Shown piece by piece: positions 27,106-36,208 of a stretch of 64,000 bases of DNA. The notes beneath the pieces are model-generated. The model did not search any database, was not told the origin of the DNA, and saw nothing but the letters and a program-made list of their open reading frames with translations. The DNA comes from Phycisphaerae bacterium (GTDB taxonomy: Bacteria; Planctomycetota; Phycisphaerae; Phycisphaerales; UBA1924). The stretch spans positions 1,054,001 to 1,118,000 of the forward strand of contig JAUIES010000001.1 in assembly GCA_030429705.1 (NCBI GenBank), in the 5' to 3' direction. The position numbers and the translations under genes are program-made. Position 1 is the stretch's first letter. Every line of letters starts with the position of its first letter.

Positions 27106-27381
27106 TCAGTCTTCACCGAATCCGTCGGCGACCAACTTCGCGAGCGCTCGCACACACGCTTTCGCATCGACACCAGTCGCAGTCACTTCGAGTTCGGTCC
27201 CTTTCGTGGCGGCGAGCATCATCATTTCCATGATGGATTTGCCGCCGACGCGTTCGTCACCTTTGCTCACCCAGACCTCTGAGGCAAAAGAGGACGCAAG
27301 ATCGACAAACTCCGTCGCAGGTCGCGCGTGAAGACCGAGTCGATTGACAATGGTCACCTTGACGGCCGCGACCTCGCCCAT
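27106..27381 (-). CDS. ptsH: HPr phosphocarrier protein
   Basis: A 91-aa HPr. The active-site histidine is H18 in GLHARPA, and the regulatory serine region reads KSIMEMMML with Ser49. The gene follows ptsN and hpf on the same strand, as in the rpoN-linked nitrogen PTS operon, so it may be an NPr-like regulatory protein and not part of sugar uptake. No enzyme I or sugar permease is in the window. Confidence 0.93.
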   Translation of the reverse strand: MGEVAAVKVTIVNRLGLHARPATEFVDLASSFASEVWVSKGDERVGGKSIMEMMMLAATKGTELEVTATGVDAKACVRALAKLVADGFGED

Positions 27382-27412
27382 TGCATATCCCTCATCCGTA
27401 TCAGAACGCCAA

Positions 27413-27889
27413 TCAGCCGGTCAACAACTGGTCATCTGCTTCCTGCAAGAGCGTGACGACTTCGTCGACTGATGATGCCTGACGAAGAAAACGCCGAAAG
27501 GTGTCTTTGCGAAGGTTTTTGAAGATTGTTTCCATCGCTTGCAAATGATCTTCCGGGCTGTTCTCCGGGCTGAGCAGCAAGAAGATCGAATAGACCGGTT
27601 GCTTGTCGAGTGCGTTGAAGTCAACACCCTTCGGGCTGAGCCCGACCGCTGCGACAAGCCCGGTGAGTGCCGGATGTTTCACATGCGGGACCGCGACGCC
27701 TCGCCCGAATCCGGTCGAACTCATTTTCTCGCGATCCAGAACTTTTTTGATGAGTTCATCACGAATCGACGCGCTCGTCGCACCCGACGCGACGAGGCTG
27801 TCCATCAACTCGGCGATGACATCGTCGCGTTCCTGGGATTGCAGTTCGGGAACGATGGCTTCTTGTTTGACCAGTGTGCTGAGTTTCAT
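27413..27889 (-). CDS. ptsN: PTS EIIA-type protein (PtsN-like)
   Basis: The 158-aa fructose/nitrogen EIIA domain carries the phosphorylatable His69 in VAVPHVKHP. Other family blocks include REKMSSTGFGRGVAVPH and LLLSPENSPEDHLQAM. It lies 31 bp upstream of ptsH and 26 bp downstream of hpf, all on the minus strand. In proteobacteria this protein regulates potassium transport and nitrogen metabolism; targets here are unknown. Confidence 0.9.
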   Translation of the reverse strand: MKLSTLVKQEAIVPELQSQERDDVIAELMDSLVASGATSASIRDELIKKVLDREKMSSTGFGRGVAVPHVKHPALTGLVAAVGLSPKGVDFNALDKQPVYSIFLLLSPENSPEDHLQAMETIFKNLRKDTFRRFLRQASSVDEVVTLLQEADDQLLTG

Positions 27890-27915
27890 TCTTTATCTAA
27901 CTGGGCGTATGCCCC

Positions 27916-28221
27916 TCAAGACCGTTTCGAGGTCTTCAGTTTTTCCTTGAAGTCAGTCAGCTGACGCTGGCTTTTCGAAATCGCTCGATCAACGGTGGCG
28001 TACAGATCGTCTCCCTCACAGTGAGAGACGAACGCTTCGTGTTTTTCGACATCCACCACAAACTCGACGCGATAAATGTGGTTGTGGTCCGGCTTGGAGA
28101 CGGTGCTTGTAATCAACTGTGTCCCGTCAAAGTACCGAAGCAATCGTTCGGCCTTTGACTCAATATAGTTTCGAATCGCATCCGTGATCTCAAACTGTCT
28201 TCCAACAACATCGATGCGCAT
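27916..28221 (-). CDS. hpf: Ribosome hibernation-promoting factor, short form
   Basis: A 101-aa HPF/YfiA protein that binds the 30S decoding centre and stabilises inactive ribosomes. It opens IDVVGRQFEITDAIRNYIE, followed by the VEFVVDVEKHEAFVSH strand and a DLYATVDRAISK helix. It lacks the C-terminal dimerisation domain of long HPF. AGAGGAG precedes the ATG. It is the first gene of the hpf-ptsN-ptsH run, consistent with a stress or starvation unit. Confidence 0.92.
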   Translation of the reverse strand: MRIDVVGRQFEITDAIRNYIESKAERLLRYFDGTQLITSTVSKPDHNHIYRVEFVVDVEKHEAFVSHCEGDDLYATVDRAISKSQRQLTDFKEKLKTSKRS

Positions 28222-28319
28222 GGATTCTCCTCTTCATTCAGAATACCAAAGACGCGTTCATTCACCTGCAACAAAGAGCATATGCCCTTTTGGGTCATAG
28301 GCCCAGTATCGCAACACCA

Positions 28320-29279
28320 CTACACCTCCGGATCATCGGTCCGATCAGGGCTGTCCGCCACCTGAGCTCGTTCATCCGGGATCAGATTCGATTCGGCCGC
28401 AGCAGCAGGCACGACCGCCACAGTCCCTTTTTCCAGTGGCTTGGCAACCACGCCCTGATTCTTCCGATCTGGTGCCAACACGCCGGCTGTCAACACAAAC
28501 CGCAATGCCTGGTCGACGGGAATATCGACCACACGCACATTTTCGCGCTTGAGGTTGATCGTGAACCCAGTAAACGGCGTGGGCGAGGTCGGGATGAATA
28601 CGCTGACCGCGTCGCCTCCGGTCGCATCGTCGACAGCCTGCAACGAGTCACCGGTCAGGAACCCCAAGGTCCATATATCTTTACTCGGGTACTCGACGAG
28701 CACGACCGTGCTGAACGCCATCGCTTTCTCGCCGAGAATCAGCTCCACCACTTGTTTGACATGCGGATAGACCTGCTTGAACCCCGGCACCGCTGCAATG
28801 AGTCGTTCGACGCGCAGGTAAATCTGTCGGCCAAAGAAGTTCCCCAGAAGCAAGCCCGCGAGGTAGATCAACAAGATCGCCAGCAACAACCCAACGAACT
28901 GCAGGTACCACTGCGCACGCCAGAACTCACTCAATCGTTCGCGTCGTAGCGTCCTCGTCATCGCCTCACGACTGGACTCCACCGCTTCATCACGCGCGAC
29001 CGTGTCTTCGGGCAGATTGCCATCTTTGGCGAGCCGAGCACGAATCTGCTGGTCCGTCACAATGAACCACTCAGGCGATTTTTCTTCATCGATGACGCGA
29101 GGCATGACCCACACCGTCACCCCGCGCAGCCCGGCATTGATTGGCTCGGCAACATTCGTCAGGAGAAACATGAATGCCTGGTAGATGATCCACAGCGTCA
29201 CAATGGTCGGCAGCAGGATCGCGAGACCACGCCCGAAGAACAATCGGAAGTCACTATTAAAACTGTGCTGCTTCGGCAT
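28320..29279 (-). CDS. DUF502 family membrane protein
   Basis: The 319-aa protein starts with GRGLAILLPTIVTLWIIYQAFMFL, the characteristic first helix of DUF502 proteins, and has a second membrane region at about 120-150 (FVGLLLAILLIYLAGLLLGNFFG). The conserved core follows: VPGFKQVYPHVKQVVELI, VVLVEYPSKDIWTLGFLTG and FIPTSPTPFTGF. The C-terminal 60 residues are variable. The ATG follows GAGGGAC. Its function is unknown; homologues are widespread in bacteria and plants. Confidence 0.85.
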   Translation of the reverse strand: MPKQHSFNSDFRLFFGRGLAILLPTIVTLWIIYQAFMFLLTNVAEPINAGLRGVTVWVMPRVIDEEKSPEWFIVTDQQIRARLAKDGNLPEDTVARDEAVESSREAMTRTLRRERLSEFWRAQWYLQFVGLLLAILLIYLAGLLLGNFFGRQIYLRVERLIAAVPGFKQVYPHVKQVVELILGEKAMAFSTVVLVEYPSKDIWTLGFLTGDSLQAVDDATGGDAVSVFIPTSPTPFTGFTINLKRENVRVVDIPVDQALRFVLTAGVLAPDRKNQGVVAKPLEKGTVAVVPAAAAESNLIPDERAQVADSPDRTDDPEV

Positions 29280-29346: not shown

Positions 29347-30927
29347 TCACGAATTGCTGTCATCAAAATAGGCATCGGCATCGTTCGGCTGATCATCCAA
29401 AAGTGCTTCAAGATCCAACGCCTGCACATCAAAACCGATTTCAGACTCATCAGTCGGATGCAGGAATCCCTTCCCGCCGCGCTTGCCATTCTCTTTGGCA
29501 GCGATCTCTTCCGCACGACGACGGCTGCGATAAATCAACCTGATCGGTACCTCTTCAAACGGTAACTCTTCACGGATCCTGTTCATCAAGTACCGCTCAT
29601 ACTGATGATCGAACATGCCGGGTCGGTTCACGACAAGAACAATTGTCGGCGGATTGGTGCGGACCTGAGCAGCGTAGTAAATCCGCGCGTGATGCCCGAG
29701 TTTATCCGTGGGTGAACGCCGTTCGAGAATCCCCTGCATCGTTCTGTTCAGTTCGCCTGTCCCGACACGCGTCGAGGCTTGCTGTTGCAGATCAAATGCA
29801 ACTTCGAGCACCCCACCGACATTCAACCCCTCTTTGGCGGACATGAACGCAATGGGTGCGAAACTGAGGCCGCGCAGTTCGCGGCGAATGTACTTCTCGT
29901 AGTCTTCAACATTGATCGGTTTCCCGGTCGGACCCGCTCGTCCCTGAACAAGATCCCACTTGTTCACGACGATCAGAACCGGCTTGATCGACTCGACCAC
30001 GAGTTGAGCGAGTTGTTCATCCACCTGGCTCACATCGGCGGTCGCGTCAATCATGAGCAACACAACCTCAGACCGAGCGATCGCGCGCTTTGATCGATCG
30101 AGCGCGTACCACTCGATCTGATTCTGAAAACTCTTCTTCCGACGCAAGCCGGCGGTATCAATCGCCAAGATACTTCGGCCGTCCAATTCAAACCGCACAT
30201 CAATCGCGTCGCGGGTGGTTCCCGGTATCTCTGACACGATCACGCGATCTTCACCGGCGAGTCGATTGACCAGCGTGCTCTTACCAGCGTTACGCTTACC
30301 CACGATCGCCAAACGAAGGTCGGCTGCCGGCTCTCGAATATCCGTAAACGGCAACAGCGTCCACAGGCGATCAATCAGATCGCGGCGGAAATAGTTGCTC
30401 TTCGATGAACAGATCATCGGTTCGCCGAACCCGAGTCCGGCGGCTTCAAATGCGTGCGCTTCCCACTTGGGCCCATCGACCTTCGTCGCGACCACATGGA
30501 CCGGCACTGTTTCACCGCCCTGGCGTTCGCCGAGCCGCTGCTCGCGAAGCAATTTCGCAATCTCCCAGTCGGCGCTGGTCACACCTGCCTGCGCATCGAC
30601 CGCGAACAGAATCAGATCGGCACCAGAAACCGCAGATGCGATCTGCGATTCGATGTCCTTGGTCAGTGTTGAGAGGTCGGAACCGATCTCGTCATAGCGG
30701 CCATCTTCTGCCACATACACGCCATATCCGCCCGTATCGGTCAATTCAACGGGTTTGGGTCTCTCGCGCCCGTTGGGGCTTGGCAACTCAACCACCACAG
30801 ACACACGATCACGCGTCACACCGGGAGTCGGGTCGACGATCGAGACCCGTTCGCCCGCGAGCATGTTCAATAGTGAACTCTTGCCGACATTCGGCCGACC
30901 AACAATTGCTATCCGTGGAACTGGCAT
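29347..30927 (-). CDS. der: Ribosome biogenesis GTPase Der (EngA)
   Basis: The 526-aa protein has two tandem GTPase domains and a C-terminal KH-like domain. The first has GRPNVGKSS (10-18), DTGG and TKVD; the second has GKRNAGKST (210-218), DTAGL and NKWD. It supports 50S assembly. It is somewhat longer than most Der proteins, with an insert around 130-150 and an acidic C-terminal tail. TAGGAT (30940-30935) ends 7 nt before the ATG with no Shine-Dalgarno, suggesting a leaderless message. Confidence 0.95.
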   Translation of the reverse strand: MPVPRIAIVGRPNVGKSSLLNMLAGERVSIVDPTPGVTRDRVSVVVELPSPNGRERPKPVELTDTGGYGVYVAEDGRYDEIGSDLSTLTKDIESQIASAVSGADLILFAVDAQAGVTSADWEIAKLLREQRLGERQGGETVPVHVVATKVDGPKWEAHAFEAAGLGFGEPMICSSKSNYFRRDLIDRLWTLLPFTDIREPAADLRLAIVGKRNAGKSTLVNRLAGEDRVIVSEIPGTTRDAIDVRFELDGRSILAIDTAGLRRKKSFQNQIEWYALDRSKRAIARSEVVLLMIDATADVSQVDEQLAQLVVESIKPVLIVVNKWDLVQGRAGPTGKPINVEDYEKYIRRELRGLSFAPIAFMSAKEGLNVGGVLEVAFDLQQQASTRVGTGELNRTMQGILERRSPTDKLGHHARIYYAAQVRTNPPTIVLVVNRPGMFDHQYERYLMNRIREELPFEEVPIRLIYRSRRRAEEIAAKENGKRGGKGFLHPTDESEIGFDVQALDLEALLDDQPNDADAYFDDSNS

Positions 30928-31001
30928 ATCAGGGATCCTACGGCGAGGAAAGACCGTGCGAAGGGCAACTCGGCTCAGTCAGGGTCGTATTGTCAAACAA
31001 C

Positions 31002-32387
31002 ATGTCTGGACACCCTTCAGTCAGGTTGTTGCTTTGCCTCGTTCTGACGCTGACCCGCGCCGTCCGGGCGGGTGCCTCTGACCCTGACCCGCCGCAGACG
31101 GACGCAACCCCGATCGCGGTCCTGTCGATTCACCCTGATTATCCGTCACATGCGGACTTGCAGCCGGTCATCAGGGCCATCGGTGATGCCCGCATTGTCG
31201 TGCTTTCGACCGCAACCGAAGGCGACGGAGCAGCCCATTGGGCGCGCACGCGCCTTGCCACGGCGCTGCTCGAACAAGCCGATTTCAGCGTCCTGGCGTT
31301 TGAAGCCGGGTTCTATGACTGCCAGGCGATGAATGCTCAGTTCGCAGCCGGGACCGATGCATCACTCTGCCCGGCGGTCGGCCTTCCGCCACAACTGGCG
31401 CGGTCGGGTTATTTCGAGGCGCTGCACCGATTCGTCTGGAAGAGTTACTTCAAACCTGTACCAGTCGAAGTCTGCGGGTTCGACTATCAGTTCACGGGCA
31501 AACGAACCGATCGACAACTCCCACGCGATCTGCTCGAATACCTCGGCTCAATCGACCCGCATCCACTCACCAAAGATCTCAGGCGAAAGTACCTCACTGT
31601 CCTCGAACGACTGACCGAAGCCAAAGAAAACGGCGACGATGCCGGGCTCGTGCGATCGTGGCAAGAGACACACGAGTTGCAACGCGTTCTTCAAGACAAC
31701 CGCGATGCTCTGATCGAGTCGACCAGCTCGAAGCGATTTCAGATCTGGGACAAAATCCTGGCCGACATGATTCGCTACGCGGAAGAACACCTTGCTTTTG
31801 AGGGTGAGAAGCCATTCCCACTCAATGAATCATCGCGGCAAAAGCACATGGGTGAGCGGCTTGTCTGGATCGCCAACGAGCTGTATCCCGATCGCCGTAT
31901 CATCGTCTTTGCAGGTACGCTGACCGCTTTGAGCGACCCGACGGCTGTGCAGGTCGAACCGAGCAACGCGTTGTTGGAGGGATTCACATCTGCGGGACAA
32001 GCCTGGCGTTCGTCCTTTGGCGATGATCTGTACACCATCGCGTGTACTTCAAAACGAGGCATCTCAGGCTGGATCGACGGACCCGGTTTCCCGATCACTG
32101 ATGCACTGGTCGGTTCGGTCGAGCATCAACTGGCAGCGGCTGGTGATCCGTTCGTGTTCGTGTCCCTTCGTAATATCAGCGACCCGTGGTGGCAACGCCC
32201 GCGACAAAGCACCATGCTGGGGCTCAATCGGCTCCTGGCGTTGCATGAATCGGCTGAACCCGCGCAGCGCGTCCGAGCTGTTTGGCCGAAGCAGGTCGAT
32301 GCCCTCTTGTTCATTGATCAGATGTTCCCCAACCATTGGCAGGCGAAACCACCCGAGGACGCTGTCCATACCGTGAATATCGAATGA
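31002..32387 (+). CDS. Exported erythromycin-esterase-fold protein lacking the catalytic motifs
   Basis: A 461-aa protein with a signal peptide (VRLLLCLVLTLTRAVRAGAS). The layout matches the erythromycin esterase/succinoglycan family: FSVLAFEAGFYDC, then VCGFDYQFTG and an ERLVWIANEL helix. But the family's GExxHG motif reads STATEG (residues 69-74), and the AHNxH motif reads AGTLTAL (304-310). The catalytic Glu and both His are thus missing, so hydrolysis by the known mechanism is unlikely. TATTGT (30988-30993) ends 8 nt before the ATG. The stop overlaps miaA (ATGA). Confidence 0.7.
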   Translation: MSGHPSVRLLLCLVLTLTRAVRAGASDPDPPQTDATPIAVLSIHPDYPSHADLQPVIRAIGDARIVVLSTATEGDGAAHWARTRLATALLEQADFSVLAFEAGFYDCQAMNAQFAAGTDASLCPAVGLPPQLARSGYFEALHRFVWKSYFKPVPVEVCGFDYQFTGKRTDRQLPRDLLEYLGSIDPHPLTKDLRRKYLTVLERLTEAKENGDDAGLVRSWQETHELQRVLQDNRDALIESTSSKRFQIWDKILADMIRYAEEHLAFEGEKPFPLNESSRQKHMGERLVWIANELYPDRRIIVFAGTLTALSDPTAVQVEPSNALLEGFTSAGQAWRSSFGDDLYTIACTSKRGISGWIDGPGFPITDALVGSVEHQLAAAGDPFVFVSLRNISDPWWQRPRQSTMLGLNRLLALHESAEPAQRVRAVWPKQVDALLFIDQMFPNHWQAKPPEDAVHTVNIE

Positions 32388-33328
32388 ACCACCGTGTGCG
32401 CATGCCAATCATCGTTGGTCCGACGGCGGGCGGCAAAACCGCGCTGGCGGTGCGCGTTGCGCACTTGTGCGCCCGCAATCACGGACAACCCGGCGAAGTC
32501 ATCAGTGCGGACTCTGTACAAATCTATCGAGGCCTGGACATCGGATCTGCCAAACCAACCGTTGCTGAACAGGATGGCGTGCCTCACCATCTCATCGATA
32601 TTGTCGAACCGAATCAGCCTTTCACAGTTCATGATTGGCTCCGGGCTGCTGAACGCAAGATCGAGGAGATTCGATCGAAAGGCAACACGCCCATCATCGC
32701 AGGTGGAACCCATCTGTACATCAAGGCTCTCCTCGACGGTCTTTTTGATGGCCCAGAGCAAGACCGCGCCTTGCGTGATTCACTCATGGCGCAGCCGCTC
32801 GCCGATCTGCGAAATCGACTGCAAGAGGTTGATCCGGCCGCCTGTGAACGGATCCACCCGAACGATCGCAGGCGAACAGTCCGGGCGCTCGAGGTGTTTG
32901 AACTGACCGGTACACCGATCTCAGACTTGCAAAAGCAGTGGGATTCTGACCGGCCTCGAAATGATGACCGTCGCGTATTCGGGTTGCGTTGGTCAACCGA
33001 AGCGATTAACAGCCGAATCAACCATCGCGTCCGTGAGATGATGGCTGCCGGGCTTGAAGGCGAAGTAGGGCGCCTGCGACCGAATCTGGGGCCTCAAGCA
33101 GCCGAAGCGTTGGGGTATAAACAGATTATCGCTGTGTTTAATAACCAAACAACACTCGAAAATGCGGTCGAACGGATCAAGATCGACACGCGCCGATTCG
33201 CGAAGAATCAACGGACCTGGCTCAAACGCCTGGCTCTCGACCCGCGATTTTCATGGGTCGACATGGACGACGCAGACTTGCTTGGTTCCGCGCAAGTTAT
33301 TGTTGACAAGTGCCTTATGTTTGAATGA
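32384..33328 (+). CDS. miaA: tRNA dimethylallyltransferase
   Basis: MiaA adds a dimethylallyl group to A37 of tRNAs that read UNN codons. The 314-aa protein has the P-loop GPTAGGKT (12-19), SADSVQIYRGLDIGSAKP, HHLIDIVEP, IIAGGTHLYIKALLDG and the tail ARMKR-like RRFAKNQRTWLKR. The ATG at 32384 overlaps the preceding stop (ATGA), so translation is coupled. miaB or hfq are not adjacent. Confidence 0.95.
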   Translation: MNHRVRMPIIVGPTAGGKTALAVRVAHLCARNHGQPGEVISADSVQIYRGLDIGSAKPTVAEQDGVPHHLIDIVEPNQPFTVHDWLRAAERKIEEIRSKGNTPIIAGGTHLYIKALLDGLFDGPEQDRALRDSLMAQPLADLRNRLQEVDPAACERIHPNDRRRTVRALEVFELTGTPISDLQKQWDSDRPRNDDRRVFGLRWSTEAINSRINHRVREMMAAGLEGEVGRLRPNLGPQAAEALGYKQIIAVFNNQTTLENAVERIKIDTRRFAKNQRTWLKRLALDPRFSWVDMDDADLLGSAQVIVDKCLMFE

Positions 33329-33340
33329 GCGTTCTCCGGT

Positions 33341-33358
33341 TCACGGTATCCACCGTGA
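33341..33358 (+). terminator. Weak hairpin after miaA
   Basis: TCACGGT (33341-33347) and ACCGTGA (33352-33358) form a perfect 7-bp stem with loop ATCC, 13 nt after the miaA stop. There is no T run, so termination would need Rho or be inefficient. Confidence 0.3.
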
Positions 33359-33466
33359 GATCATTGAAGTCAGCCGATCTAGGCATCCGAGAGAATGCTG
33401 AAGACCGGGCACTTGACAACCCGCGTAGGGTGGTCTTCCCTCAAGACCAGACCCGACAGGAGCCAC

Positions 33467-36208
<2,742 letters not shown>

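Follow-up and report, generated by a model that had tools for sequence, protein, structure and literature searches.

An Ere-like gene between der and miaA

The window analysed here is a stretch of 64,000 nucleotides from the Phycisphaerae bacterium contig JAUIES010000001.1. At positions 31002..32387 of its forward strand lies an open reading frame for 461 amino acids, whose translation belongs to the erythromycin esterase (Ere) family and whose product we consider below as an Ere-fold pseudoenzyme. PF05139 (Erythro_esteras) was the sole Pfam match of this 461-aa product at E≤0.1, with an E-value of 1.4e-24 and 87.9 bits for a cut-off of 26.4. The score against the NCBIfam EreB equivalog, NF000209, was 23 bits, far from its cut-off of 750. 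The first 24 residues (31002..31073, forward strand) are hydrophobic and read by eye as a probable signal peptide. A hydrophobic stretch likewise begins the four close relatives presented below, and the protein is probably exported.

The gene is flanked by der, encoding the EngA GTPase (29347..30927, reverse strand, PF01926 and PF14714), which is divergent and separated from the start of the ere-like frame by 74 bases, and by miaA, encoding tRNA dimethylallyltransferase (32384..33328, forward strand, PF01715, 1.1e-80), which is followed by topA. The link to miaA through an ATGA, already pointed out in an earlier note on this DNA, is real: stop and start codons overlap at 32384..32387 of the forward strand, and they do so in all five members of the clade described below. 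When positions 30850-33500 were scanned for promoters and terminators, nothing resembling a sigma-70 site came up, and the terminators did not rise above chance. On the other side of der, the reverse strand of the window encodes at 27106-29279 a DUF502 protein (PF04367), then three small genes resembling, by eye, those for HPF, a PTS IIA protein and HPr. All four genes also adjoin der in each of the related genomes of the clade.

Loss of catalytic residues

Four close relatives, from genomes G078, G032, G079 and G113, are 42-47% identical to the window protein over their full length, and score 59.1 to 78.3 bits with PF05139. Together with the window genome they make a set of five members spanning three genera. 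To place the catalytic residues, we relied on EreC. In the mechanism proposed for it (PMC7979712), H50 is the base, E78 and H289 are its partners holding the water, E47 orients H50, and R261 is the transition-state arginine. The same paper reports, from earlier mutagenesis, that a change of E78 abolished activity and that a change of H50 or H289 cost about 1000 fold. It also cites a later view in which H289 and E78 serve substrate specificity, not catalysis. The loss of H50 in the clade is independent of that view.

The EreC chain and the numbering of the paper are offset by 20, as judged from H50 and E78, which puts R261 on the Arg of the RDxxM helix; this mapping was made in the present analysis. 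The EreC crystal sequence carries H289N, and reads AHNNN where relatives read AHNxH, which means that H289 is the second His of the motif. The alignment included 20 intact relatives from the same order, all of which have canonical residues at the five catalytic positions. This set leaves out G082, truncated where its contig stops, as well as G087, in which the site is lost too, and the remote canonical proteins G009 and G010i; G082, G009 and G010i all have GExxH.

Against these 20 intact relatives, both motifs are replaced in the window protein, as had been claimed from its sequence. The former motif I, GExxHG, is now STATEG (residues 69-74, 31206..31223, forward strand), with Thr70 at the E47 position and Glu73 at the H50 position. 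The former motif II is AGTLT (residues 304-308, 31911..31925, forward strand), with Thr308 as the H289 equivalent. For this second motif the claim stands for the essential His, H289, and has to be corrected for the first one, which is already Ala in 16 of the 20 intact rows, so that the proper motif for comparison is A-x-x-x-H. The intact relatives with this Ala are found among loci L050-L066 and L068. The first His of AHNxH thus seems dispensable in several branches, in which GExxH and the last His stay, as far as these alignments tell. The variant W(A/G)ANYH was seen in three remote proteins (L098, L100 and L102, from Chryseobacterium and Flavobacterium).

The check proposed in the earlier note, a search for further members with these replacements, had a positive outcome: the pattern was found again in the four other genomes. 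His is absent from both positions in all five proteins: the H50 position reads E, P, P, A and P, and the H289 position is Thr in 5/5. The E47 position has Glu in three of the five. The active site is nevertheless not lost as a whole. Glu101, the E78 equivalent (31302..31304, forward strand), is kept in 5/5, and Arg279, the R261 equivalent (31836..31838, forward strand), in 4/5, the exception being G113 with Ile. New clade-specific invariant residues were present too: His187, His456 and Thr308 are invariant in the clade, and not one of the 20 intact rows has the same residue at the corresponding position. An alignment that would restore the site was sought; none of those made here puts a His back at the H50 or H289 position of the window protein, and the Glu equivalent to E78 is in place. 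By its residues the window protein is not an Ere-type esterase; by descent and fold it is within PF05139.

Predicted fold and comparison with known proteins

AlphaFold2, run with a 17-row alignment, gave for the window protein a model with a pLDDT of 89.1 and a pTM of 0.88, in which residues 13-33 are under pLDDT 50. When the five clade members alone were used, the pLDDT fell to 46.3, with values of about 70-89 in most of residues 171-260; the fold claim thus leans on homology to intact relatives. The predicted fold is the two-lobed Ere fold. A helix at 104-115 follows the Glu101 strand in the model, and residues 163-268 match helical bundles; they are taken as the counterpart of the EreC four-helix minor lobe on the basis of this model. 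In EreC, 9 of the 38 residues that form the pocket come from that lobe, and the catalytic residues all lie elsewhere (PMC7979712).

With a single protein as query, phmmer found nothing related among solved structures, and profiles were needed to reach them. Foldseek of the model returned only BcR135, BcR136 and EreC at E≤0.001, and the VIA Z of the model was 37.0 with BcR135, 36.0 with BcR136, 31.3 with EreC (6XCS) and 13.3 with ChaN. BcR135 and BcR136, two Bacillus cereus "succinoglycan biosynthesis" proteins (PDB 2RAD, 3B55 and 2QGM; Z of 37.0, 36.9 and 36.0), have the same two-lobed fold and are the nearest solved structures by profile. Like the window protein they are chromosomal and have a hydrophobic N-terminus, but they keep GExxHG and HNxH, whereas it has neither histidine. 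They are reported to cleave p-nitrophenyl butyrate (PMC6109786). EreA, EreB and EreC share with the window protein the PF05139 family, the fold, and the E78 and R261 equivalents. It differs from them by lacking the H50, H289 and E47 equivalents, by its probable export, and by an identity of only 14-16% in structural alignment.

The structure comparison, whose list of families need not be complete, also recognised the fold of the major lobe in entries for ChaN, HopBA1 and Pasteurella toxin. For ChaN, the Campylobacter jejuni haem-binding protein (PDB 2G5G), the likeness extends over 200 residues. According to PMC7979712, ChaN has the same fold, binds haem, and has no minor lobe. Its haem binding is a precedent for a binder role in such a fold. 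The lobe missing from ChaN is the part with the strongest new conservation in the window clade, and sequence evidence for haem binding was not found in the window protein.

Distribution of the family and of the loss

The window protein was used as query on 61 relatives and 400 genomes of the order, and the PF05139 profile on 163 genomes of the family. With the clade alignment the search was widened to 397 genomes at class level and 392 at phylum level (E≤1e-25 for the phylum). These searches yielded the four close relatives. The loci collected held 71 distinct homologous genes, three of them partial, and GExxH was present in 65 and absent from six, namely the five of the clade and that of G087. 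GExxH was also present in 10 of 11 further relatives (8 of the 13 phylum matches outside the family, and three from the class search). Family counts are lower bounds, as the whole-genome PF05139 search misses some remote members, such as the G087 protein, to which hmmscan gives 1.6e-11. A contig scan with the single protein as query found no relative, and with the alignment it yielded nine loci, corresponding to three clade members and six remote Ere proteins. A plasmid search with a Vibrio relative, aimed at an EreA/EreB reference, produced two Priestia records at 22% identity.

The G087 gene (L091:1210-2736, forward strand) encodes a PF05139 protein with Leu, Asp, Pro and Gln at the E47, H50, E78 and H289 positions, so that only R261 is kept. 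It stands on a very long branch, and one clade uniting it with the five was not rejected (AU p 0.105); a separate origin of its loss is thus not supported. The exception among the 11 further relatives, encoded by genome G867 (L127) from another family of the phylum, has lost part of the site: GTPSYG replaces GExxHG, and the H289 position is still His. Judging from G087 and G867, such losses may have happened more than once in the phylum.

Phylogeny and chromosomal site

In a maximum-likelihood tree of 26 proteins, the five members form one clade with 100/100 support. The five genomes come out together, again at 100/100, in a tree of concatenated der, miaA and topA, and the branching inside the group matches that of the ere tree. 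Because the two trees agree, the clade has most likely inherited its gene vertically. In this three-gene tree, a contig of metagenomic origin titled "Cyanobacteria bacterium CYA N2_1" (L095, RHKP01000018.1) fell with the Phycisphaerales, and its label is probably wrong.

The order der, ere, miaA, topA is found in all five clade members. It is also found, with intact genes, at 6 of 21 other loci, in genomes G006, G067, G132, G076, G073 and G021. These intact Phycisphaerales and Planctomycetota proteins, with GExxHGDG and A-x-x-x-H, are direct relatives of the window protein. In G021 (L050), two tandem Ere-like genes, both intact, lie between der and miaA. One of these copies is sister to the clade without histidines, at 94/87, which is not firm support, and the other groups with the remaining intact genes of the der-miaA site. 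In at least eight genomes (G151, G150, G149, G080, G186, G185, G075 and G002), der and miaA are head to head with 47-88 bases between matched ends, leaving no space for ere. The der-miaA site is old, and its occupation patchy. Being shared with intact relatives, it makes the coupling with miaA say little on function.

Purifying selection

All five frames are open over their full length. For the closest clade pair, G032/G079, the NG86 method, used for all values below, gave dN/dS = 0.136/0.758 = 0.18. Four intact pairs gave 0.25, 0.28, 0.21 and 0.30, and in the G032/G079 genome pair the values were 0.07 for der and 0.17 for miaA. Deeper clade pairs gave 0.28-0.46, at dS values near or above 1, that is, saturated. 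When the G032/G079 comparison was split into six regions, one of them motif II, each gave between 0.11 and 0.21, so that no region appears recently relaxed in this pair. The protein is under purifying selection.

Where conservation has moved

We then compared the clade with quintets of intact relatives of matched divergence, each realigned (60 of 380 eligible). These quintets overlap, and the regions compared were chosen after a first look. Two regions are far more conserved in the clade than in intact relatives. One is a helix past the Glu101 strand, with the pattern YDCxxMNxQFAAGT (residues 105-118, 31314..31355, forward strand): over residues 105-120, 12 of 16 positions are invariant, compared to at most 4 of 16 in the 60 controls. 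The other lies at the beginning of the helical minor lobe, is rich in Arg and forms helices in the model (residues 169-206, 31506..31619, forward strand); 22 of its 38 positions are invariant, compared to at most 10 of 38. R168, R171, R175, R194, R195 and R203, in or just before the lobe, are all invariant.

Elsewhere the balance differed. None of the six positions of the motif I core (69-74) is invariant, for a control mean of 0.80. Motif II and its strand (298-310), with 6 of 13 for a control mean of 0.40, are not below controls. Residues 346-420 are less conserved (5 of 75, for a control mean of 0.18). In total, 115 positions are invariant in the clade, compared to 64-124 in control sets. 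A scan by 16-residue windows against 100 of the 380 quintets, biased in that gapped columns count against controls (a bias absent from the regional comparison with 60 quintets), showed the clade exceeding every control in windows 96-129, 156-237 and 444-459, and falling under all of them only at 264-279; over motif I, the clade was below the mean and within range.

Probably an exported binding protein, possibly a modified enzyme

We favour, with a probability of roughly 0.6, an exported pseudoenzyme that goes back to an Ere-like esterase of the Phycisphaerales, has kept its place on the chromosome and now binds something. The pseudoenzyme reading is supported by the loss of the H50 and H289 equivalents in five of five members when they are present in 20 of 20 intact relatives, by the grouping of these members in one clade and at one locus, by selection, by the shift of invariance to residues 105-120 and 169-206, by the predicted fold and by the precedent of ChaN. 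A more detailed version could go either way: that of a vertically inherited pseudoenzyme branch of the Ere family, acting as an exported binder of a ligand or partner, which arose in place at the Phycisphaerales der-miaA site and whose conservation moved away from the catalytic motif, to an Arg-rich helical lobe.

In such a scheme, hydrolysis by the Ere mechanism would be gone with the two histidines that hold and activate water. A small molecule or a partner would be bound instead, probably in the cleft between the lobes and outside the cytoplasm, and the contacts would be made by the newly conserved helix past Glu101 and by the Arg-rich segment that opens the helical lobe. The lineage may have started from a tandem pair such as the one in G021, of which one gene was lost and the other took on a new task.

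Several observations weigh against this reading. A pure binder need not keep Glu101 and Arg279, and these persist; the fold model is poor without intact relatives; the deeper pairs reach dN/dS values of 0.28-0.46, though at dS near or above 1; the motif II strand is conserved like controls, and windows over motif I stay in the control range; the G021 sister relationship, at 94/87, is not firm; and H289 and E78 serve specificity in the later view cited above. The persistence of the two residues leads to the strongest competing explanation, which we regard as possible though clearly less probable: a re-tooled enzyme, whose cleft would catalyse another reaction, or would still carry out the old one to a small extent, by means of Glu101, Arg279 and the new His187, His456 and Thr308. 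The clade invariance of these three last residues is in its favour. However, the H50 position varies among the five members, G113 does without Arg279, and a new short motif of catalytic appearance, combining several invariant polar residues, was not seen in the old site. These findings agree with the earlier proposal, in which the pseudoenzyme either binds something or has a changed active site, and do not choose between its two halves.

It is far less probable that the gene persists solely to lead translation into miaA, its protein being irrelevant. The ATGA overlap directly upstream of miaA in 5/5 members is what such a role would look like, but selection acts on the amino-acid sequence, and in at least eight genomes of the family miaA lies next to der without ere. 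Decay after loss of function is at least as improbable: the lost catalytic positions and the upper values of the deeper pairs would agree with it, but the frames are open and full length across three genera, the closest pair is at 0.18 when intact pairs are at 0.21-0.30, and the count of invariant positions is within the range of controls. Regulation of a second, active Ere protein made by the same cell, a common pattern among pseudoenzymes that the two tandem copies of G021, both intact, might recall, is likewise very improbable, since two different profiles found a single homologue in each of the five clade genomes (91-97% complete), PF05139 and two alignments found no second one in the window genome, and a weak second PF05139 place in G113 turned out to be a false match, a coiled-coil-like protein to which hmmscan assigns no PF05139.

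Implications

In the literature on erythromycin esterases that we searched, mostly open-access papers, and including inactive or pseudoenzyme forms and Planctomycetes or Phycisphaerae, no account of dead Ere proteins was found. The role of BcR135 and BcR136 is itself called a hypothesis in PMC6109786. An annotation by name alone would make the clade members erythromycin esterases, and they could then pass for resistance genes, a role for which their residues give no support. The der-miaA locus offers a natural before-and-after series, with intact single copies, an intact tandem pair, and copies without the histidines, and this series allows the change from a hydrolase to a likely binder to be tested. 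To our knowledge, little is settled about what chromosomal Ere-like proteins do in nature; a protein that is unable to turn over the ligand in its cleft may make this ligand easier to trap.
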